From Rhizophagus prolifer (lineage: Eukaryota; Glomeromycota; Glomeromycetes; Glomerales; Glomeraceae): a stretch of 64,000 bases of DNA. A program made the position numbers and the translations under genes. Shown one piece after another: positions 47,867 through 58,053 of this stretch. The stretch is taken from contig NQWY01000012.1 in the NCBI GenBank assembly GCA_019425655.1, positions 1-64,000 on the forward strand, written 5' to 3'. The notes beneath the pieces are model-generated. The model searched no databases. It saw only the letters and a program-made list of their open reading frames with translations, and was not told the DNA's origin. The stretch's first letter is position 1. Each line of letters begins with the position of its first letter.

Positions 47867-50800
47867 CTACTGGGTGACTTTCATCAGCTGTTTCGTGATG
47901 TTGTCCATCTTTTCAGCTTCATAAGTCGTATCGTAATCTTTCATAATATCGAAAAGATAAGAATAGAACGATGTCACTTTCTGGACATCATCTGCTTTTT
48001 TGAAAGCCTTTTCTTTGCCCATCTCCTGCAAATCTTTGATGAATGTATTGAATCTCTTATCAATGACATTCAGAGATTTTATAAGATATTGATAGCCTTT
48101 TTCTTTCTGGCCGATTTTGTTATAAGCATCAGAAACCGCACCAACTACCAAAGAATATTCCATCGGTTTGGTTTTCATTTGTCTTGCTGCATAAACCTGG
48201 AATTTCGGCGATAATCTAGTGTAATAATCATACTCTTCGAAGATTCCTTTCTTAAGGTCTTCTGCCAGTTTTAGCCCTTTTTGCTCTTGTCCGGCAACGA
48301 TATAGGCGTAAACAATAGAACTCAAAGACCTTGGGTCATTGTATTTGGAAACCGGGATTTCTCTGCTTGCCAAATCTAGAACTTCGATCGCTTTTTGCTT
48401 CTCGCCTTTCAGAACCAAAGCTTCTGCAGCTCTGCTTGCAGATGACCTGTAACTTACAATATTCTGTGTACAAGTCTCATCAAAATGAACTTTCAAATCC
48501 TTGAAATTACCCCATCTGTAATTTTTTACAATGTTGTAAAGCTCGTCTGCATTTACCATTCCCAATTCGCCGTCCGAAGATTCTTCCGTTTTGATTGGAA
48601 CCAATCTGTAACTGAATCCATCAAACTTAAGATAATTGGACAGGAAGAATAGATTGCTTCCGTCATAGATTCCACCGCTTGAGAAGTTGATCGGACGTTT
48701 CCAATCGAAGTTCGCAAGGATATCCAGCATCATCATATTATTCTTGAACATACTAGAACCTTTATAATCGATGACGATTTGTTTTTCTGCTTTTTGCGCT
48801 TCGGCTGGCGTGATGATGCCTGATTTAACGGCATTATTCACATTCACCGGAAGTACAAATTTGGAAACCGGAAGGAAGTTGAATTTCTCATAACGCTCTT
48901 CCCCAAAAATCATTTTAACGATTTCATCTTTTGCAGGAGATTTCATTTTCAAGAAATTAATAGCCTCTTTCATCGTAATCGAATCCTGGGTCAGATATTT
49001 TCTGAAAGCCGCAAATTCTGTATCTGGCACACCCTGGTCTTTTAGATTCGCAAAAATATTAGACCAATCATCTTTAGTCATCATATAAACCTGGTCGTTG
49101 GAACCTTCGCGGTAATCTTCATGAGTTAAAGTTGAAGGAACCGGCATTGAGTTATACGTTCTTCTCTTCACTTGGTCAATATTCCAAGGTGTCGATAACA
49201 ATGTGAAATTGACCACTTTTACATCCGGACGGAATTCCTCAGTCTCCTGAATGGCCCAAACCGGATACGTATCATTATCACCATAAACGAACATTATGCC
49301 GTCTTTCGGTAAAGATTTTAAACTTGAATAAGCGTAATCGTAAGCTGTGTAACGTCCACTTCTGTCGTGAACATTATAATTCTGAAAGCCCATCATAAAA
49401 GGAATTCCTAATAAAACTACGCCTACAATAATCTGAGCTGATTTGCTTTTTACTTTTTTCTGAAGCAACCAATAGATTGCAGCGACACCTAATCCAATCC
49501 AAATCGCAAATGCGTAGAAGGAACCTACCATCGCATAATCTCTTTCACGAGGTTCGAATGGTTTCATCCCTGTGTAGAATACAATCCCGACACTTGTTAA
49601 AATGAATAAAGATAATATTGCATAGAATCTTCCGAAATCTCTATTAAGTTGAAAGAAAAATCCTAGTAATCCCAAAATTAATGGAAGCATAAAGAACTTC
49701 ACTGTACTTTCATTCTGGAATTTAGCAGGCATCTCGCTCTGGTCGCCCCAAATATTATTATCGATGAAAGGAATCCCTGTAATAAAGTTTCCATTCGTAT
49801 TTTCCATATGCCCTTCGACATCATTCTGGCGACCTGCAAAATTCCAAAGCAAATATCTTCCGAAGTAATAGTAATTCTGGAATGTGATGAAATAGTCAAG
49901 ATTCTGAGCTAAAGTCGGTTTCTGAACATTGATAATTCCGAATTGTTTCGCTTTCAGATAATCATCCATTTTGATGGTTCCGTTCTCATATTTTTGACGA
50001 AGTTCATCAAAGAATTGTTTTGCTTCCGGACTTTCGGAGATTTGCTCATTCCCATAATTGAAAGTGAAATCCGGCGCACCGTACATTGAGATGTAATTCG
50101 GCATTACTGATTTATCCTCACTAAACATTCTTGGTAAGAATCCAACGTGTTCTTTGCTGTAAACATAATTGAACTTCTCTCCTACTTTGCGATATTGTCC
50201 AGTTGTAGCATCTTTCTCGTAAGTATCACCTGTTTTTTCAGTTTTGTAACTTCCGTCTTCATTTTTCTCGATTCCATTCGGGTCAAGATAAGCGGTATAA
50301 TTTTGTCCGTACAAAGTTGGCCAGTCACCGTATTGTTCTCGGTTATAGTAATCCAGCATTCCCAAAGCGTTGTCAGGGTCATTAAGGTTCATTGGCGGAT
50401 TGGCAATAGCTCTGATCGGGATGACCAGCCAGCAAGAAAATCCAATTATCATATAAACAACTGATAATGCAACTGTTTGATACAATGATTTCCCGGTTTT
50501 TCTTGTATAAGTAATGAATAAATAGCAAAGAACTGACAAAATAACAAATGCGAAAACTGTCCCTGAGTGAAAAGGCAGACCTAGTCCGTTAACAAAGAAT
50601 ATTTCAGATTTTCCGAATAACGTCATTATGACAGGGAAAATAATCTTGAAGACAATCGCCAGAATTACCAGCGTAATTCCATTAGCCCAAAGGAAAGATT
50701 TCCAGGTGAACTTATAATTTCTTGTATAATAAATCAGGCAAACTGCCGGCAATGCCAACATACACATCATATGTACACCGATAGACAAACCGATCACGAA

Positions 50801-51352
50801 AAACAAAAGGATAATCCAACGTTCATTATCTTTTTCCAGATATTCATTTTCCCATTTGGTAATCAACCAGACAATCAATGCAATAAACATACTTGCCATT
50901 GCATAAACCTCGCCTTCTACCGCTGAAAACCAAAATGTATCCGAAAATGTAAAACATAAAGCACCAACTGCTCCTGCAAATAAGGTTGCAATTTCTTCGG
51001 CAATTGTAATATTTTCAAATTCTTTATTGAGTAATCGTCTTACAAGATGGGTAATCGTCCAGAATAAAAACAGAATTGTAAACGCACTGAACAAGGCCGA
51101 CATCGCATTAATCACAAAAGAATAATGCTGACCGTCACCAAAAGAAAATAATGCAACAACGGCTCCAACCAGTTGGAAAAGTGCAGCTCCCGGTGCGTGT
51201 GTAACCTCCAATTTAACAGCGGAAGAAATGTATTCTCCACAATCCCAAAAACTGAAGTTGGGTTCTATGGTTGATAAATAAGTGATAAATGCAATTACAA
51301 AAACTACCCATCCAAGAATAGTGTTCCATCGTTTAAAAGTCCAATTCTTCAT
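47867..51352 (-). CDS. DUF2723 / glycosyltransferase family 117 polytopic membrane protein
   Basis: An 1161-residue protein with about twelve to fourteen membrane helices in the first 650 residues. NFSFWDCGEYISSAVKLEVTHAPGA is the DUF2723 signature, with an acidic pair in the first extracytoplasmic loop as in GT-C enzymes (protein O-mannosyltransferase-like). The C-terminal 500 residues are soluble and end in TPR-like helices (GLKLAEDLKKGIFEEYDYYT). GT117 members are proposed protein O-glycosyltransferases of Bacteroidota. Its own terminator follows. Confidence 0.82.
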   Translation of the reverse strand: MKNWTFKRWNTILGWVVFVIAFITYLSTIEPNFSFWDCGEYISSAVKLEVTHAPGAALFQLVGAVVALFSFGDGQHYSFVINAMSALFSAFTILFLFWTITHLVRRLLNKEFENITIAEEIATLFAGAVGALCFTFSDTFWFSAVEGEVYAMASMFIALIVWLITKWENEYLEKDNERWIILLFFVIGLSIGVHMMCMLALPAVCLIYYTRNYKFTWKSFLWANGITLVILAIVFKIIFPVIMTLFGKSEIFFVNGLGLPFHSGTVFAFVILSVLCYLFITYTRKTGKSLYQTVALSVVYMIIGFSCWLVIPIRAIANPPMNLNDPDNALGMLDYYNREQYGDWPTLYGQNYTAYLDPNGIEKNEDGSYKTEKTGDTYEKDATTGQYRKVGEKFNYVYSKEHVGFLPRMFSEDKSVMPNYISMYGAPDFTFNYGNEQISESPEAKQFFDELRQKYENGTIKMDDYLKAKQFGIINVQKPTLAQNLDYFITFQNYYYFGRYLLWNFAGRQNDVEGHMENTNGNFITGIPFIDNNIWGDQSEMPAKFQNESTVKFFMLPLILGLLGFFFQLNRDFGRFYAILSLFILTSVGIVFYTGMKPFEPRERDYAMVGSFYAFAIWIGLGVAAIYWLLQKKVKSKSAQIIVGVVLLGIPFMMGFQNYNVHDRSGRYTAYDYAYSSLKSLPKDGIMFVYGDNDTYPVWAIQETEEFRPDVKVVNFTLLSTPWNIDQVKRRTYNSMPVPSTLTHEDYREGSNDQVYMMTKDDWSNIFANLKDQGVPDTEFAAFRKYLTQDSITMKEAINFLKMKSPAKDEIVKMIFGEERYEKFNFLPVSKFVLPVNVNNAVKSGIITPAEAQKAEKQIVIDYKGSSMFKNNMMMLDILANFDWKRPINFSSGGIYDGSNLFFLSNYLKFDGFSYRLVPIKTEESSDGELGMVNADELYNIVKNYRWGNFKDLKVHFDETCTQNIVSYRSSASRAAEALVLKGEKQKAIEVLDLASREIPVSKYNDPRSLSSIVYAYIVAGQEQKGLKLAEDLKKGIFEEYDYYTRLSPKFQVYAARQMKTKPMEYSLVVGAVSDAYNKIGQKEKGYQYLIKSLNVIDKRFNTFIKDLQEMGKEKAFKKADDVQKVTSFYSYLFDIMKDYDTTYEAEKMDNITKQLMKVTQ

Positions 51353-51516: not shown

Positions 51517-51539
51517 TTGCAATTTTTTTTTTATTTTTG
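51517..51539 (+). promoter_or_regulatory. putative promoter of the cysteine-synthase-like gene
   Basis: TATTTTTG at 51532-51539 matches TAnnTTTG, 32 bases before the ATG; TTGC lies 11 bases upstream. The 220-base divergent gap has no other gene. Confidence 0.45.
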
Positions 51540-51571: not shown

Positions 51572-52609
51572 ATGACGAATGTATACGATAATATTCTTGG
51601 TTTGATTGGCAACTCACCGTTAGTCAAGTTAAATCAGGTTACCAAGGACATTCCTGCGACAGTATACGCTAAGTTGGAATCTTATAACCCAGGGCATTCT
51701 ACAAAAGATAGAATTGCACTTCATATTATAGAAAATGCAGAAAGACAGGGAATCCTGAAATCAGATTCTGTAATCGTAGAAACCACTTCCGGAAACACCG
51801 GTTTTTCTATTGCAATGGTTTGTATCGTCAAAGGTTACAAATGCATTCTTGCAGTTAGCGATAAAACAAAGGCTGAAAAAATCGCTTATCTAAAGGCACT
51901 TGGCGCAACAGTTTATGTTTGCCCGGCTTCAGTTCCTGCAGATGACCCAAGATCTTATTATGAAGTAGCTAAAAGAATTGCTGCGGAAACTCCTAATTCG
52001 GTTTACATCAATCAGTATTTCAACGAATTGAATATTGATGCACATTACCAAACCACAGGCCCTGAGATTTGGAAACAGACGGAAGGCAAAATAACTCACC
52101 TTTTTGCCTGCACAGGAACTGGCGGAACGCTTTCCGGCTCCGCAAAATATCTGAAAGAACAAAATCCTGACATCAAAGTGATTGGTGTAGATGCGGATGG
52201 CTCTATCCTGAAAACTTACCACGAAACAGGAAAAATCAATAAAACAGAAATTCATCCTTATCAGATTGAAGGTCTTGGAAAGAATTTAATCCCGGGAGCA
52301 CTTTTATTTGATACGATTGATGAATATGTACGAGTTAATGACGAGATGTCAGCTTACAGAACCCGAGAGATTGCTTTGAAGGAAGCAATAATGGGCGGTT
52401 ACACAACTGGAGCAGTAACTCAGGCTTTGATTCAGTATGCCAATTCCCATGAGTTCAAAGAAGATGACTTGATAGTATTAATTTTTCCAGACCATGGTTC
52501 CCGCTATATCACTAAAGTATACAGCGACAAATGGATGGAAGAACAAGGCTTTATCAACAACTGTTTTCACAACTATGATGAAGTTTTCAAAACAGAAATC
52601 ATCAAATAA
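51572..52609 (+). CDS. cysteine-synthase-family PLP enzyme, candidate cysteate synthase
   Basis: A 345-residue fold-type II PLP enzyme. The Schiff-base lysine K45 lies in GHSTKDR, where typical CysK/CysM have G(N/S)S(V/I)KDR. VETTSGNTG binds the substrate carboxylate (EPTSGNTG in most), and TGTGGTLSG holds the PLP phosphate; FPDHGSRY ends the core. Family sense: beta-replacement on O-activated serine. The divergent active-site words and the SPT-like gene 75 bases downstream suggest it may use sulfite to make cysteate for sulfonolipids. Plain cysteine synthase remains possible. Confidence 0.72.
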   Translation: MTNVYDNILGLIGNSPLVKLNQVTKDIPATVYAKLESYNPGHSTKDRIALHIIENAERQGILKSDSVIVETTSGNTGFSIAMVCIVKGYKCILAVSDKTKAEKIAYLKALGATVYVCPASVPADDPRSYYEVAKRIAAETPNSVYINQYFNELNIDAHYQTTGPEIWKQTEGKITHLFACTGTGGTLSGSAKYLKEQNPDIKVIGVDADGSILKTYHETGKINKTEIHPYQIEGLGKNLIPGALLFDTIDEYVRVNDEMSAYRTREIALKEAIMGGYTTGAVTQALIQYANSHEFKEDDLIVLIFPDHGSRYITKVYSDKWMEEQGFINNCFHNYDEVFKTEIIK

Positions 52610-52629
52610 AATTTAAACACAAAATTCAT

Positions 52630-52658
52630 AACCTTTTGTCATACAAAAGGTTTTTTCA
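52630..52658 (+). terminator. terminator-like hairpin between the two PLP-enzyme genes
   Basis: AACCTTTTGT / ACAAAAGGTT perfect stem with loop CAT, then TTTTT. It could limit read-through from the upstream gene into the next one, which starts 27 bases later. Confidence 0.65.
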
Positions 52659-52684
52659 ATCAATAAAAATATCAGTTAGAAAAA

Positions 52685-53956
52685 ATGGACATTTTTGAAA
52701 GAATAAAACAAAATCCAGGTCCGCTGGGACAATTTGCAGATTATGGTGAAGGATACTATATTTTCCCAAGATTAGAAGGACCAATTGGACCGAGAATGAA
52801 GTTTCAGGGGAAAGAGGTTATTTTTTGGAGTGCTAATGATTATTTGGGTATGTGTAATCATCCCGAAGTTTTGGAAGCTGATGCCAAAGCCGCTGCAGAG
52901 TTTGGAATGTTTTATCCGATGGGAGCCAGAGCAATGTCCGGAGAAACTGAACAGCATTTGCAATTGGAAAGAGAATTGGCGGATTTCGTTAAGAAAGACT
53001 CTGCTTATCTTTTGAATTTCGGTTACCAGGGAATGGTTTCTACGATTGACGCTTTGGTCTCAAGAAATGACGTGATTGTTTATGATGTAGACTCTCACGC
53101 TTGTATCGTGGACGGTGTCAGACTGCACGCTGGAAAACGTTTCACTTACAGACACAATGATATCGAAAGTTTTGAAAAGAACTTAATCAGAGCTCAAAAG
53201 GTCACTGAAGAAACAGGCGGCGGAATTTTAGTAATTACCGAAGGTGTTTTCGGAATGCGAGGACAACAAGGTAAACTGAAAGAGATCTGCGCGCTTAAAG
53301 ACAAATATAAATTCAGAATCCTGGTTGACGATGCTCACGGATTTGGAACATTGGGAGAAACCGGAGCCGGAGCTGGAGAAGAGCAAGGCTGCCAGGATCA
53401 GATTGATGTTTATTTCTCTACGTTTGCTAAGTCTATGGCTGGTTTCGGAGCATTCTTAGCTGGAGACAAAGAGATTATCCGTTATTTGAAATTCAACCTG
53501 AGATCTCAGATTTTTGCTAAATCTCTGACAATGCCAATGGTAATCGGAGGTTTGAAAAGATTGGAACTGTTGAGAACAAGACCGGAAATCAAGGCTAAGC
53601 TTTGGGAAAATGTTGAAAAACTTCAAGGTGGATTGAAAAAAATCGGATATAATCTTGGTGACACCAACACTTGTGTAACGCCGGTTTTTATCCAGGGAAC
53701 ACCTGTTGAAGCGACTTTATTAGTTAAAGAATTAAGAGAAGATTACGGAATTTTCACATCTGTTGTGGTTTATCCGGTAATTCCAAAAGGAATGATTCTT
53801 CTTAGATTAATTCCAACCGCTTCTCATACCGATGCTGAAATCAACGAAACCCTTGCAGCTTTCGAATCGATTTACAACAAATTAGCAAGCGGTTATTACA
53901 AAGAAGCTGAAGCTAAATTATTGAAAGAGCAAAACTTAGAATTTAAGCCAATTTAA
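52685..53956 (+). CDS. alpha-oxoamine synthase (SPT/KBL-like), candidate serine or cysteate acyltransferase
   Basis: A 423-residue PLP enzyme of the family that condenses an amino acid with an acyl thioester and releases CO2. Motifs: WSANDYLGMCNHPEV, PMGARAMSGETEQHLQLE, NFGYQGMVSTIDAL, VDDAHGFGTLGETGAG (PLP aspartate) and YFSTFAKSMAGFGAF with the lysine K249. FSTFAKSM is closer to serine palmitoyltransferase than to 8-amino-7-oxononanoate synthase or 2-amino-3-ketobutyrate ligase. In Bacteroidota such enzymes make sphingoid or capnine-type bases. Next to a cysteine-synthase-like gene, a role in capnine synthesis is the best guess. Confidence 0.82.
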   Translation: MDIFERIKQNPGPLGQFADYGEGYYIFPRLEGPIGPRMKFQGKEVIFWSANDYLGMCNHPEVLEADAKAAAEFGMFYPMGARAMSGETEQHLQLERELADFVKKDSAYLLNFGYQGMVSTIDALVSRNDVIVYDVDSHACIVDGVRLHAGKRFTYRHNDIESFEKNLIRAQKVTEETGGGILVITEGVFGMRGQQGKLKEICALKDKYKFRILVDDAHGFGTLGETGAGAGEEQGCQDQIDVYFSTFAKSMAGFGAFLAGDKEIIRYLKFNLRSQIFAKSLTMPMVIGGLKRLELLRTRPEIKAKLWENVEKLQGGLKKIGYNLGDTNTCVTPVFIQGTPVEATLLVKELREDYGIFTSVVVYPVIPKGMILLRLIPTASHTDAEINETLAAFESIYNKLASGYYKEAEAKLLKEQNLEFKPI

Positions 53957-53977: not shown

Positions 53978-54018
53978 ATAAAACGCCTAAACAAAATTGT
54001 TTAGGCGTTTTTATTTTA
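53978..54018. terminator. bidirectional terminator
   Basis: AAAACGCCTAAACAA / TTGTTTAGGCGTTTT, a 15-bp stem with a 2-base loop and T-rich flanks on both strands. It separates the SPT-like gene from the convergent serine hydrolase. Confidence 0.88.
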
Positions 54019-56694: not shown

Positions 56695-58053
56695 ATGGAA
56701 AGTAAAAAAGAATTCTTCCTCGAGTGTTACAAACTCGGGATCATCAAGTTTGGGCGTTTTACACTGAAAAGCGGAATAGAAAGTCCGTTTTATGTGGATT
56801 TGCGGCCACTCGCTTCTGATCCGAAAATCCTGAAAAAACTAGCTAATTATCTCTTGGAAATGTTGCCGCTGGATAATTTTGATATCATCTGTGGTGTTCC
56901 TTACGCCGCGCTTCCAATGGCGACAGCAATGTCGCTGGAAAGTTATCTCCCATTAATTATTAAGAGAAAAGAAGCCAAAGCTTACGGAACAAAAAAACTG
57001 ATTGAGGGAATCTACGAGAAAGGACAAAACTGTCTATTGGTAGAAGATGTCATCACCTCCGGAAAATCTTTGGTAGAAACCATTGATGAGGTTGAAAATG
57101 AAGGCATCAAGGTTTCTGACATTGTTGTAGTTCTTGATAGACAGCAAGGCGGAAAAGAAAAACTAGAAGCTAAAGGTTACAAAGTTCATTCGCTTTTCAA
57201 TATCTCTGAGGTTGTGGAAATCCTGAGAGAAGTTAATTACATCGATGATGAGGAAGTATCGAGAATCAGAGATTTTGTGAACGGAAACCAAGTGGTTTTT
57301 GAAGAGAAAAAACGTCTGTCTTACGAACAAAAACTGGAAGTAGCGGAACATTCTTTTGCTAAGAAAATCCTTGAAATCGCTATTGAAAAAAGATCAAACT
57401 TAATTGCATCGGCAGATTTTATTACCACAAAAGAATTATTGGATTTCGCTGACATTGTTGGTCCTCACATTGTGGCTCTTAAAACTCATATCGATATTCT
57501 GAACGATTTTGATGCTGACGAAACCATTCTTCCGCTCAAAGATTTAGCAACGAAACATAATTTCCTTTTGATGGAAGACCGGAAATTTGCTGATATCGGG
57601 AACACTCAGGAACTGCAGTTTTCTTACGGAACTTATAAGATTTCCAACTGGGCAGATCTGGTAACATCTCACGTGATCGGCGGAAGCAAAAGCTTAGATT
57701 GCTTTATTAATGTTGGTGTGGTTGCGATTTTAGGAATGTCTTCTCAAGGCACTTTAACCGATGCTCATTATCGTGAAGAAGCTTTGAAAATCATAGAGAA
57801 TCATCCAAGTATAATCGGCTGTGTAGCACAAAATCAAGTTTCTGACCAAATCTTATTGTTTACACCAGGTGTGAATTTGGGTGCAAGTGGCGATGACAAA
57901 GGCCAGCAATACAATTCTCCGGAACATGTGATTAAAAATTACGGTACCGATTTCATCATCGTTGGACGCGGCATCTATAAAGCAGACGAGCCGGAACAAG
58001 AAGCTTTACGTTACAAAAACGAAGGCTGGAAAGCTTATCAGGATTCTTTGTAA
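56695..58053 (+). CDS. pyrEF: bifunctional orotate phosphoribosyltransferase / OMP decarboxylase (fused UMP synthase)
   Basis: Converts orotate to UMP in two steps in one 452-residue chain. OPRT domain (1-200): SPFYVDLRPLASDP and the PRPP loop LLVEDVITSGKSLVET. ODC domain (from about 215): ALKTHIDILNDF, LLMEDRKFADIGNTQE (D295 and K297), and FTPGVNLGASGDDKGQQYNSP ending VGRGIYKA. The order OPRT then ODC and the residue-level look of the ODC half are like eukaryotic UMP synthase, unlike the separate pyrE and pyrF of many bacteria. A proper promoter precedes it. Confidence 0.92.
   Translation: MESKKEFFLECYKLGIIKFGRFTLKSGIESPFYVDLRPLASDPKILKKLANYLLEMLPLDNFDIICGVPYAALPMATAMSLESYLPLIIKRKEAKAYGTKKLIEGIYEKGQNCLLVEDVITSGKSLVETIDEVENEGIKVSDIVVVLDRQQGGKEKLEAKGYKVHSLFNISEVVEILREVNYIDDEEVSRIRDFVNGNQVVFEEKKRLSYEQKLEVAEHSFAKKILEIAIEKRSNLIASADFITTKELLDFADIVGPHIVALKTHIDILNDFDADETILPLKDLATKHNFLLMEDRKFADIGNTQELQFSYGTYKISNWADLVTSHVIGGSKSLDCFINVGVVAILGMSSQGTLTDAHYREEALKIIENHPSIIGCVAQNQVSDQILLFTPGVNLGASGDDKGQQYNSPEHVIKNYGTDFIIVGRGIYKADEPEQEALRYKNEGWKAYQDSL

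Follow-up and report, generated by a model that had tools for sequence, protein, structure and literature searches.

Described systems

Capnine synthesis begins with two enzymes, CapA and CapB, which have been published. Phosphoserine is described as the substrate from which CapA forms cysteate (PMC10191378), and CapB and SulA condense cysteate with acyl-ACP to give 3-ketocapnine (PMC9304779). Sulfonolipids have roles in gliding motility, inflammation, and choanoflagellate development (PMC11211663).

The CapA and CapB proteins of Capnocytophaga ochracea (C7M8J5 and C7M8J6; Liu et al. 2022, as cited in PMC12927429 and PMC10191378) belong to the same two families as the proteins reported here and act in the same step order. 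Their consecutive accessions suggest that the two genes are also neighbours. This system belongs to a different bacterium, and the CapA reported here scores under the NCBI cut-off for CapA. In the related Weeksellaceae species Chryseobacterium gleum DSM 16776, Cys and CFAT were shown to catalyse the two opening steps of sulfobacin synthesis (PMC11211663). Alistipes finegoldii SulA (PDB 7u7h) has its acyltransferase family, active-site residues, and Lys281 in common with the second protein reported here (PMC9304779), whereas the cysteate of Alistipes comes from a distantly related archaeal-type cysteate synthase and not from CapA (PMC10191378).

The capA-capB locus

The window, which is the whole 64,000-nucleotide stretch of DNA that was analysed, has its nearest named relatives in the Epilithonimonas branch of the Weeksellaceae. 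The nearest genome compared (G001) is 98.4% identical to the window over the capA-capB locus. Two intact open reading frames with ATG starts lie on the + strand 75 nt apart, at the positions given for them in the initial annotation, and both are kept across the genus.

51572..52609, + strand: predicted capA-type cysteate synthase gene (ORF1), 345 aa, fold-type II PLP enzyme, assigned by model score, tree, and 15 clade-specific residues
52685..53956, + strand: predicted capB/sulA/CFAT cysteate acyl-ACP transferase gene (ORF2), 423 aa, assigned by PDB matches, tree, and Lys279

The initial annotation read these genes as a capnine pair, and the clade placement of both proteins, the SulA-type lysine, and the lack of a serine palmitoyltransferase (SPT) in G001 support that reading. 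The pair is almost certainly capA-capB, encoding the first two steps of capnine (sulfonolipid) synthesis. Family membership, residue markers, gene pairing, and the lack of an SPT are directly supported. The substrates and products are assigned by analogy with characterised relatives, and the strain itself is predicted on the same grounds to produce sulfonolipids. Capnine synthesis by this route is known from close relatives and is general in the family, and the finding is in this respect an ordinary one.

In the proposed pathway, CapA would form L-cysteate by PLP-dependent beta-replacement, most likely from O-phospho-L-serine and sulfite. CapB would then condense cysteate with acyl-ACP, with loss of CO2, to yield 3-ketocapnine, and completion of the lipid would fall to an unlinked reductase together with an N-acyltransferase. 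The pair predicts sulfonolipid production in Epilithonimonas and most Weeksellaceae.

CapA

The PALP fold of ORF1, its PLP lysine and SGNTG loop, and its 371 bits with the NCBIfam model for cystathionine beta-synthase would fit an ordinary enzyme of the cysteine synthase or cystathionine beta-synthase type, placed next to an acyltransferase gene by chance. However, the cysteate synthase model (NF053679, CysteaSynCapA) gives 552 bits, a lead of 181 bits over the next family, and CysK gives 262. The maximum-likelihood tree places ORF1, its relatives, and the solved protein 9k2p together (support 94/94), with a paralogue clade apart (100/99), which sets ORF1 off from the ordinary cysteine synthases. 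A separate cysteine-synthase-like enzyme exists alongside it: all genus genomes carry an ORF1 counterpart scoring 548-557 bits with the CapA model, and most carry a second enzyme scoring 430-446 bits. The second enzyme of G001 is 50% identical to ORF1, scores 439 bits with the CapA model versus 425 with that for cystathionine beta-synthase, and carries the ordinary-type words GNSVKDR and IEGTSGNTG. The ORF1 gene also remains the neighbour of capB in most genomes of the family. An ordinary enzyme is therefore very improbable here; judged by the tree, ORF1 belongs to the CapA cysteate-synthase clade and falls outside the ordinary cysteine synthases.

The closest solved relative of ORF1 is PDB 9k2p, which carries the generic deposited name PLP-dependent protein beta subunit. 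It is 57% identical to ORF1, shares the His and Thr markers discussed below, and passes the CapA cut-off of 600 bits with 630.7. The fold is settled by solved relatives with identities of 57% or more. C. ochracea CapA and C. gleum Cys stand outside the sequence set and are linked to ORF1 through the NF053679 model and 9k2p; the C. aquifrigidense pair, which is in the set, is about 87-88% identical to the window pair.

With 552 bits, ORF1 misses the 600-bit cut-off of NF053679, which is a naming threshold and not a biochemical property; ORF1 was accordingly filed in the CapA clade and not under the NF053679 equivalog. The CapA-type protein of C. aquifrigidense also falls below it (545 bits), as does every match in 79 of 80 sampled family genomes, while Flagellimonas CapA scores 654 bits. 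The low scores are read as the product of a threshold tuned on other families and not as a functional difference, since experiments support Cys and CFAT in the related C. gleum (PMC11211663). Automatic pipelines may miss these genes, since the cut-off leaves out nearly the whole family. The markers gained for annotation are His42, Thr71, and Lys237 in CapA and Lys279 in CapB.

Two conserved words of ORF1 contain CapA-specific residues:

51692..51712, + strand: GHSTKDR codons, residues 41-47, with CapA-specific His42 and the PLP-lysine position Lys45, from alignment with CysK
51776..51802, + strand: VETTSGNTG codons, residues 69-77, with CapA-specific Thr71 before the SGNTG substrate loop, from residue comparison

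Both words are present in ORF1. The corresponding words are FSVKCR and VEPTSGNTG in E. coli CysK, GSVKDR and IEATSGNTG in CysM, and GGSIKDR and IEPTSGNTG in a cystathionine beta-synthase. The initial annotation described the ORF1 words as altered active-site words. They do differ from those of CysK and CysM, but the SGNTG core and the PLP lysine are unchanged, and the real changes are His42 and Thr71. Each is found in 40/40 CapA-type proteins and 0/11 others, which have Gly, Phe, or Asn at position 42 and Pro, Ala, or Gly at position 71. These two and 13 further positions separate the CapA-type proteins from the others completely (40 versus 11); among the further positions are Cys180, Lys237-Asn238-Leu239, and Thr278.

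Invariant in the CapA-type set and absent elsewhere, His42 and Thr71 are markers of the clade. The proposal that the altered residues mark sulfite use is thus half borne out: they mark CapA, and they may also form the site for sulfite or phosphoserine. As possible anion-holding residues, Lys237 and His42 stand out.

CapB

ORF2 belongs to the alpha-oxoamine synthase superfamily, as profile and structure matches confirm for a protein first described as SPT-like. Among solved proteins it matches 28eh, deposited as 'Cysteate-C-fatty acyltransferase', with 645 bits, A. finegoldii SulA (7u7h) with 548, and the Sphingobacterium multivorum SPT (3a2b) with 233. The tree groups ORF2 with 7u7h and 28eh in a cysteate-acyltransferase clade (100/100) that leaves SPT, Kbl, and BioF outside. 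The SulA active-site residues Asn53, His140, Asp217, His220, Lys251, and Arg376 are all present, and ORF2 Lys249 corresponds to the SulA PLP lysine, Lys251. ORF2 Lys279 corresponds to SulA Lys281, a residue that the SulA authors found essential and proposed as the discriminator between SulA and SPT (PMC9304779).

53519..53521, + strand: Lys279 codon, the residue separating cysteate acyltransferases from serine palmitoyltransferases, from alignment

This position is Lys in 127/127 relatives at >=60% identity and in 28eh and 7u7h; it is Ala in SPT, Asn in Kbl, and Thr in BioF.

An SPT, with the pair then serving sphingolipid synthesis, would share the superfamily of ORF2, and 3a2b has the same fold and PLP chemistry. 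SPT is also the top NCBIfam model for ORF2. Its 283 bits, however, are equal to the glycine C-acetyltransferase score and far under the SPT cut-off of 640, and ORF2 has a lysine at the site where 3a2b has alanine. The cysteate-acyltransferase clade is separate from that of 3a2b, and serine was not a substrate for A. finegoldii SulA (PMC9304779). None of the four genomes tested encodes an SPT above the SPT cut-off. G001 has no SPT, and at the thresholds used its single other superfamily enzyme scores as a glycine C-acetyltransferase, with 672 bits against a cut-off of 493. An SPT identity for ORF2 has a negligible probability. ORF2 is predicted, from its characterised relatives, to convert cysteate and acyl-ACP to 3-ketocapnine and CO2.

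Neither grouping named at the outset as fatal to the capnine reading was found: in the trees the first protein lies outside the ordinary cysteine synthases and the second outside the SPTs, where Lys279 and the SPT-free G001 also place it.

Spacer and transcription

The spacer between the two genes (52610-52684, 75 nt) holds one hairpin, which is terminator-like and had been described as the only feature between the genes. A promoter motif precedes capA and a further hairpin follows capB.

51532..51539, + strand: presumed Bacteroidota-type -7 promoter motif TATTTTTG, match to TAnnTTTG, 40 nt ahead of the start of capA
52630..52652, + strand: terminator-like hairpin in the capA-capB spacer, 10 pairs (3 G-C), loop of 3, T-rich tail
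53980..54011, + strand: terminator-like hairpin after capB, 14 pairs (5 G-C), loop of 4, T-rich tail

A chance fold was ruled out as the origin of the spacer hairpin by its z-score of -5.3 against shuffled sequences, its recurrence, and compensatory pairs. Of the 110 distinct spacers, 65 form a comparable stem, compared with 3% of shuffled sequences, and a 14-sequence alignment contains two compensatory pairs (G-C/A-U and C-G/U-A; 9 cells versus 3.1 in shuffles).

Of 124 distinct sequences, 117 have TAnnTTTG, which we take to be the Bacteroidota -7 promoter motif, in the 150 nt upstream of capA, where 17.7 would be expected to have it; its usual distance from the ATG is 38-42 nt. The capA-capB spacers have two layouts: a long one with terminator and promoter motif, and a short one with the terminator and without the motif. 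Among spacers longer than 95 nt, 28/31 contain TAnnTTTG, mostly 3' of the hairpin; it is missing in 75/79 spacers of 95 nt or less, to which that of the window belongs.

The simplest reading is that capB was formerly a separate unit and here would rely on read-through from the capA promoter. Since the spacer motif is missing in the window, capB is probably dependent on read-through there; a non-consensus promoter for capB is possible. More tentatively, and with less than even probability, the Epilithonimonas/Chryseobacterium branch may have lost the capB promoter while keeping the terminator, so that read-through would set output and hold CapB below CapA. If this is true, sulfonolipid synthesis would have a control point that is so far unrecorded. 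The layout with a terminator and without a promoter motif ahead of capB appears to be a new but minor feature, no description of it having come up in the literature consulted for the gene pair.

Gene neighbourhood

The capA-capB pair is present in 23/23 genus genomes. In a sample of 80 family genomes, 77 have capA and 79 have capB; of the 76 with both, the genes are neighbours in 61, lie within 9 kb of each other in 8, and are apart in 7. The pair is adjacent in 75 of 80 named loci. Chance proximity of the two genes was ruled out by their adjacency across family genomes.

It carries next to no weight that the pair is correct and cysteate serves mainly another use (a taurine-like solute or export) with lipid secondary, as an extra capA beside a membrane protein gene in some Chryseobacterium genomes might indicate, given that the capA copy sits with capB in the window and in nearly all of the genus and family.

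That extra capA has as neighbours a gene for a DUF1275 membrane protein and a Crp-like gene, and not capB (L128:4001-5038, L154:4001-5026, and L182:4004-5011). In C. tagetis, the DUF1275-side capA and the capB-linked copy are 98% identical in DNA, over the gene alone, which marks a recent copying event and hints at another use of cysteate.

In two other genera of the family, capA and capB are separated by a gene for a short-chain dehydrogenase (L085:2499-3348, locus reverse strand in oriented coordinates; L064:2606-3457), and most of the family lacks one at this site. The intervening gene is likely capC, encoding the 3-ketocapnine reductase. A search of G001 with this dehydrogenase as query returned 17 generic reductases, the best at 34% identity, and no CapC was assigned. 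This agrees with C. gleum, in which the ketocapnine reductases are reported to be unlinked (PMC11211663).

A second capB-like gene, with 61-63% identity and the SulA-type lysine kept, is present in three genomes of the genus (G023, G021, and G011; L061:8252-9490, L062:8401-9636, and L063:8941-10170). In the two of these neighbourhoods examined, L061 and L063, no capA lies beside it.

Elsewhere in the window, positions 47867-51352, transcribed away from capA, encode a membrane protein of 1161 aa that belongs to the TMEM260-like protein O-mannosyltransferase family. Positions 56695-58053 contain a 452-aa gene that joins a phosphoribosyltransferase (orotate phosphoribosyltransferase-like) to an OMP decarboxylase, in the order found in eukaryotic UMP synthase.
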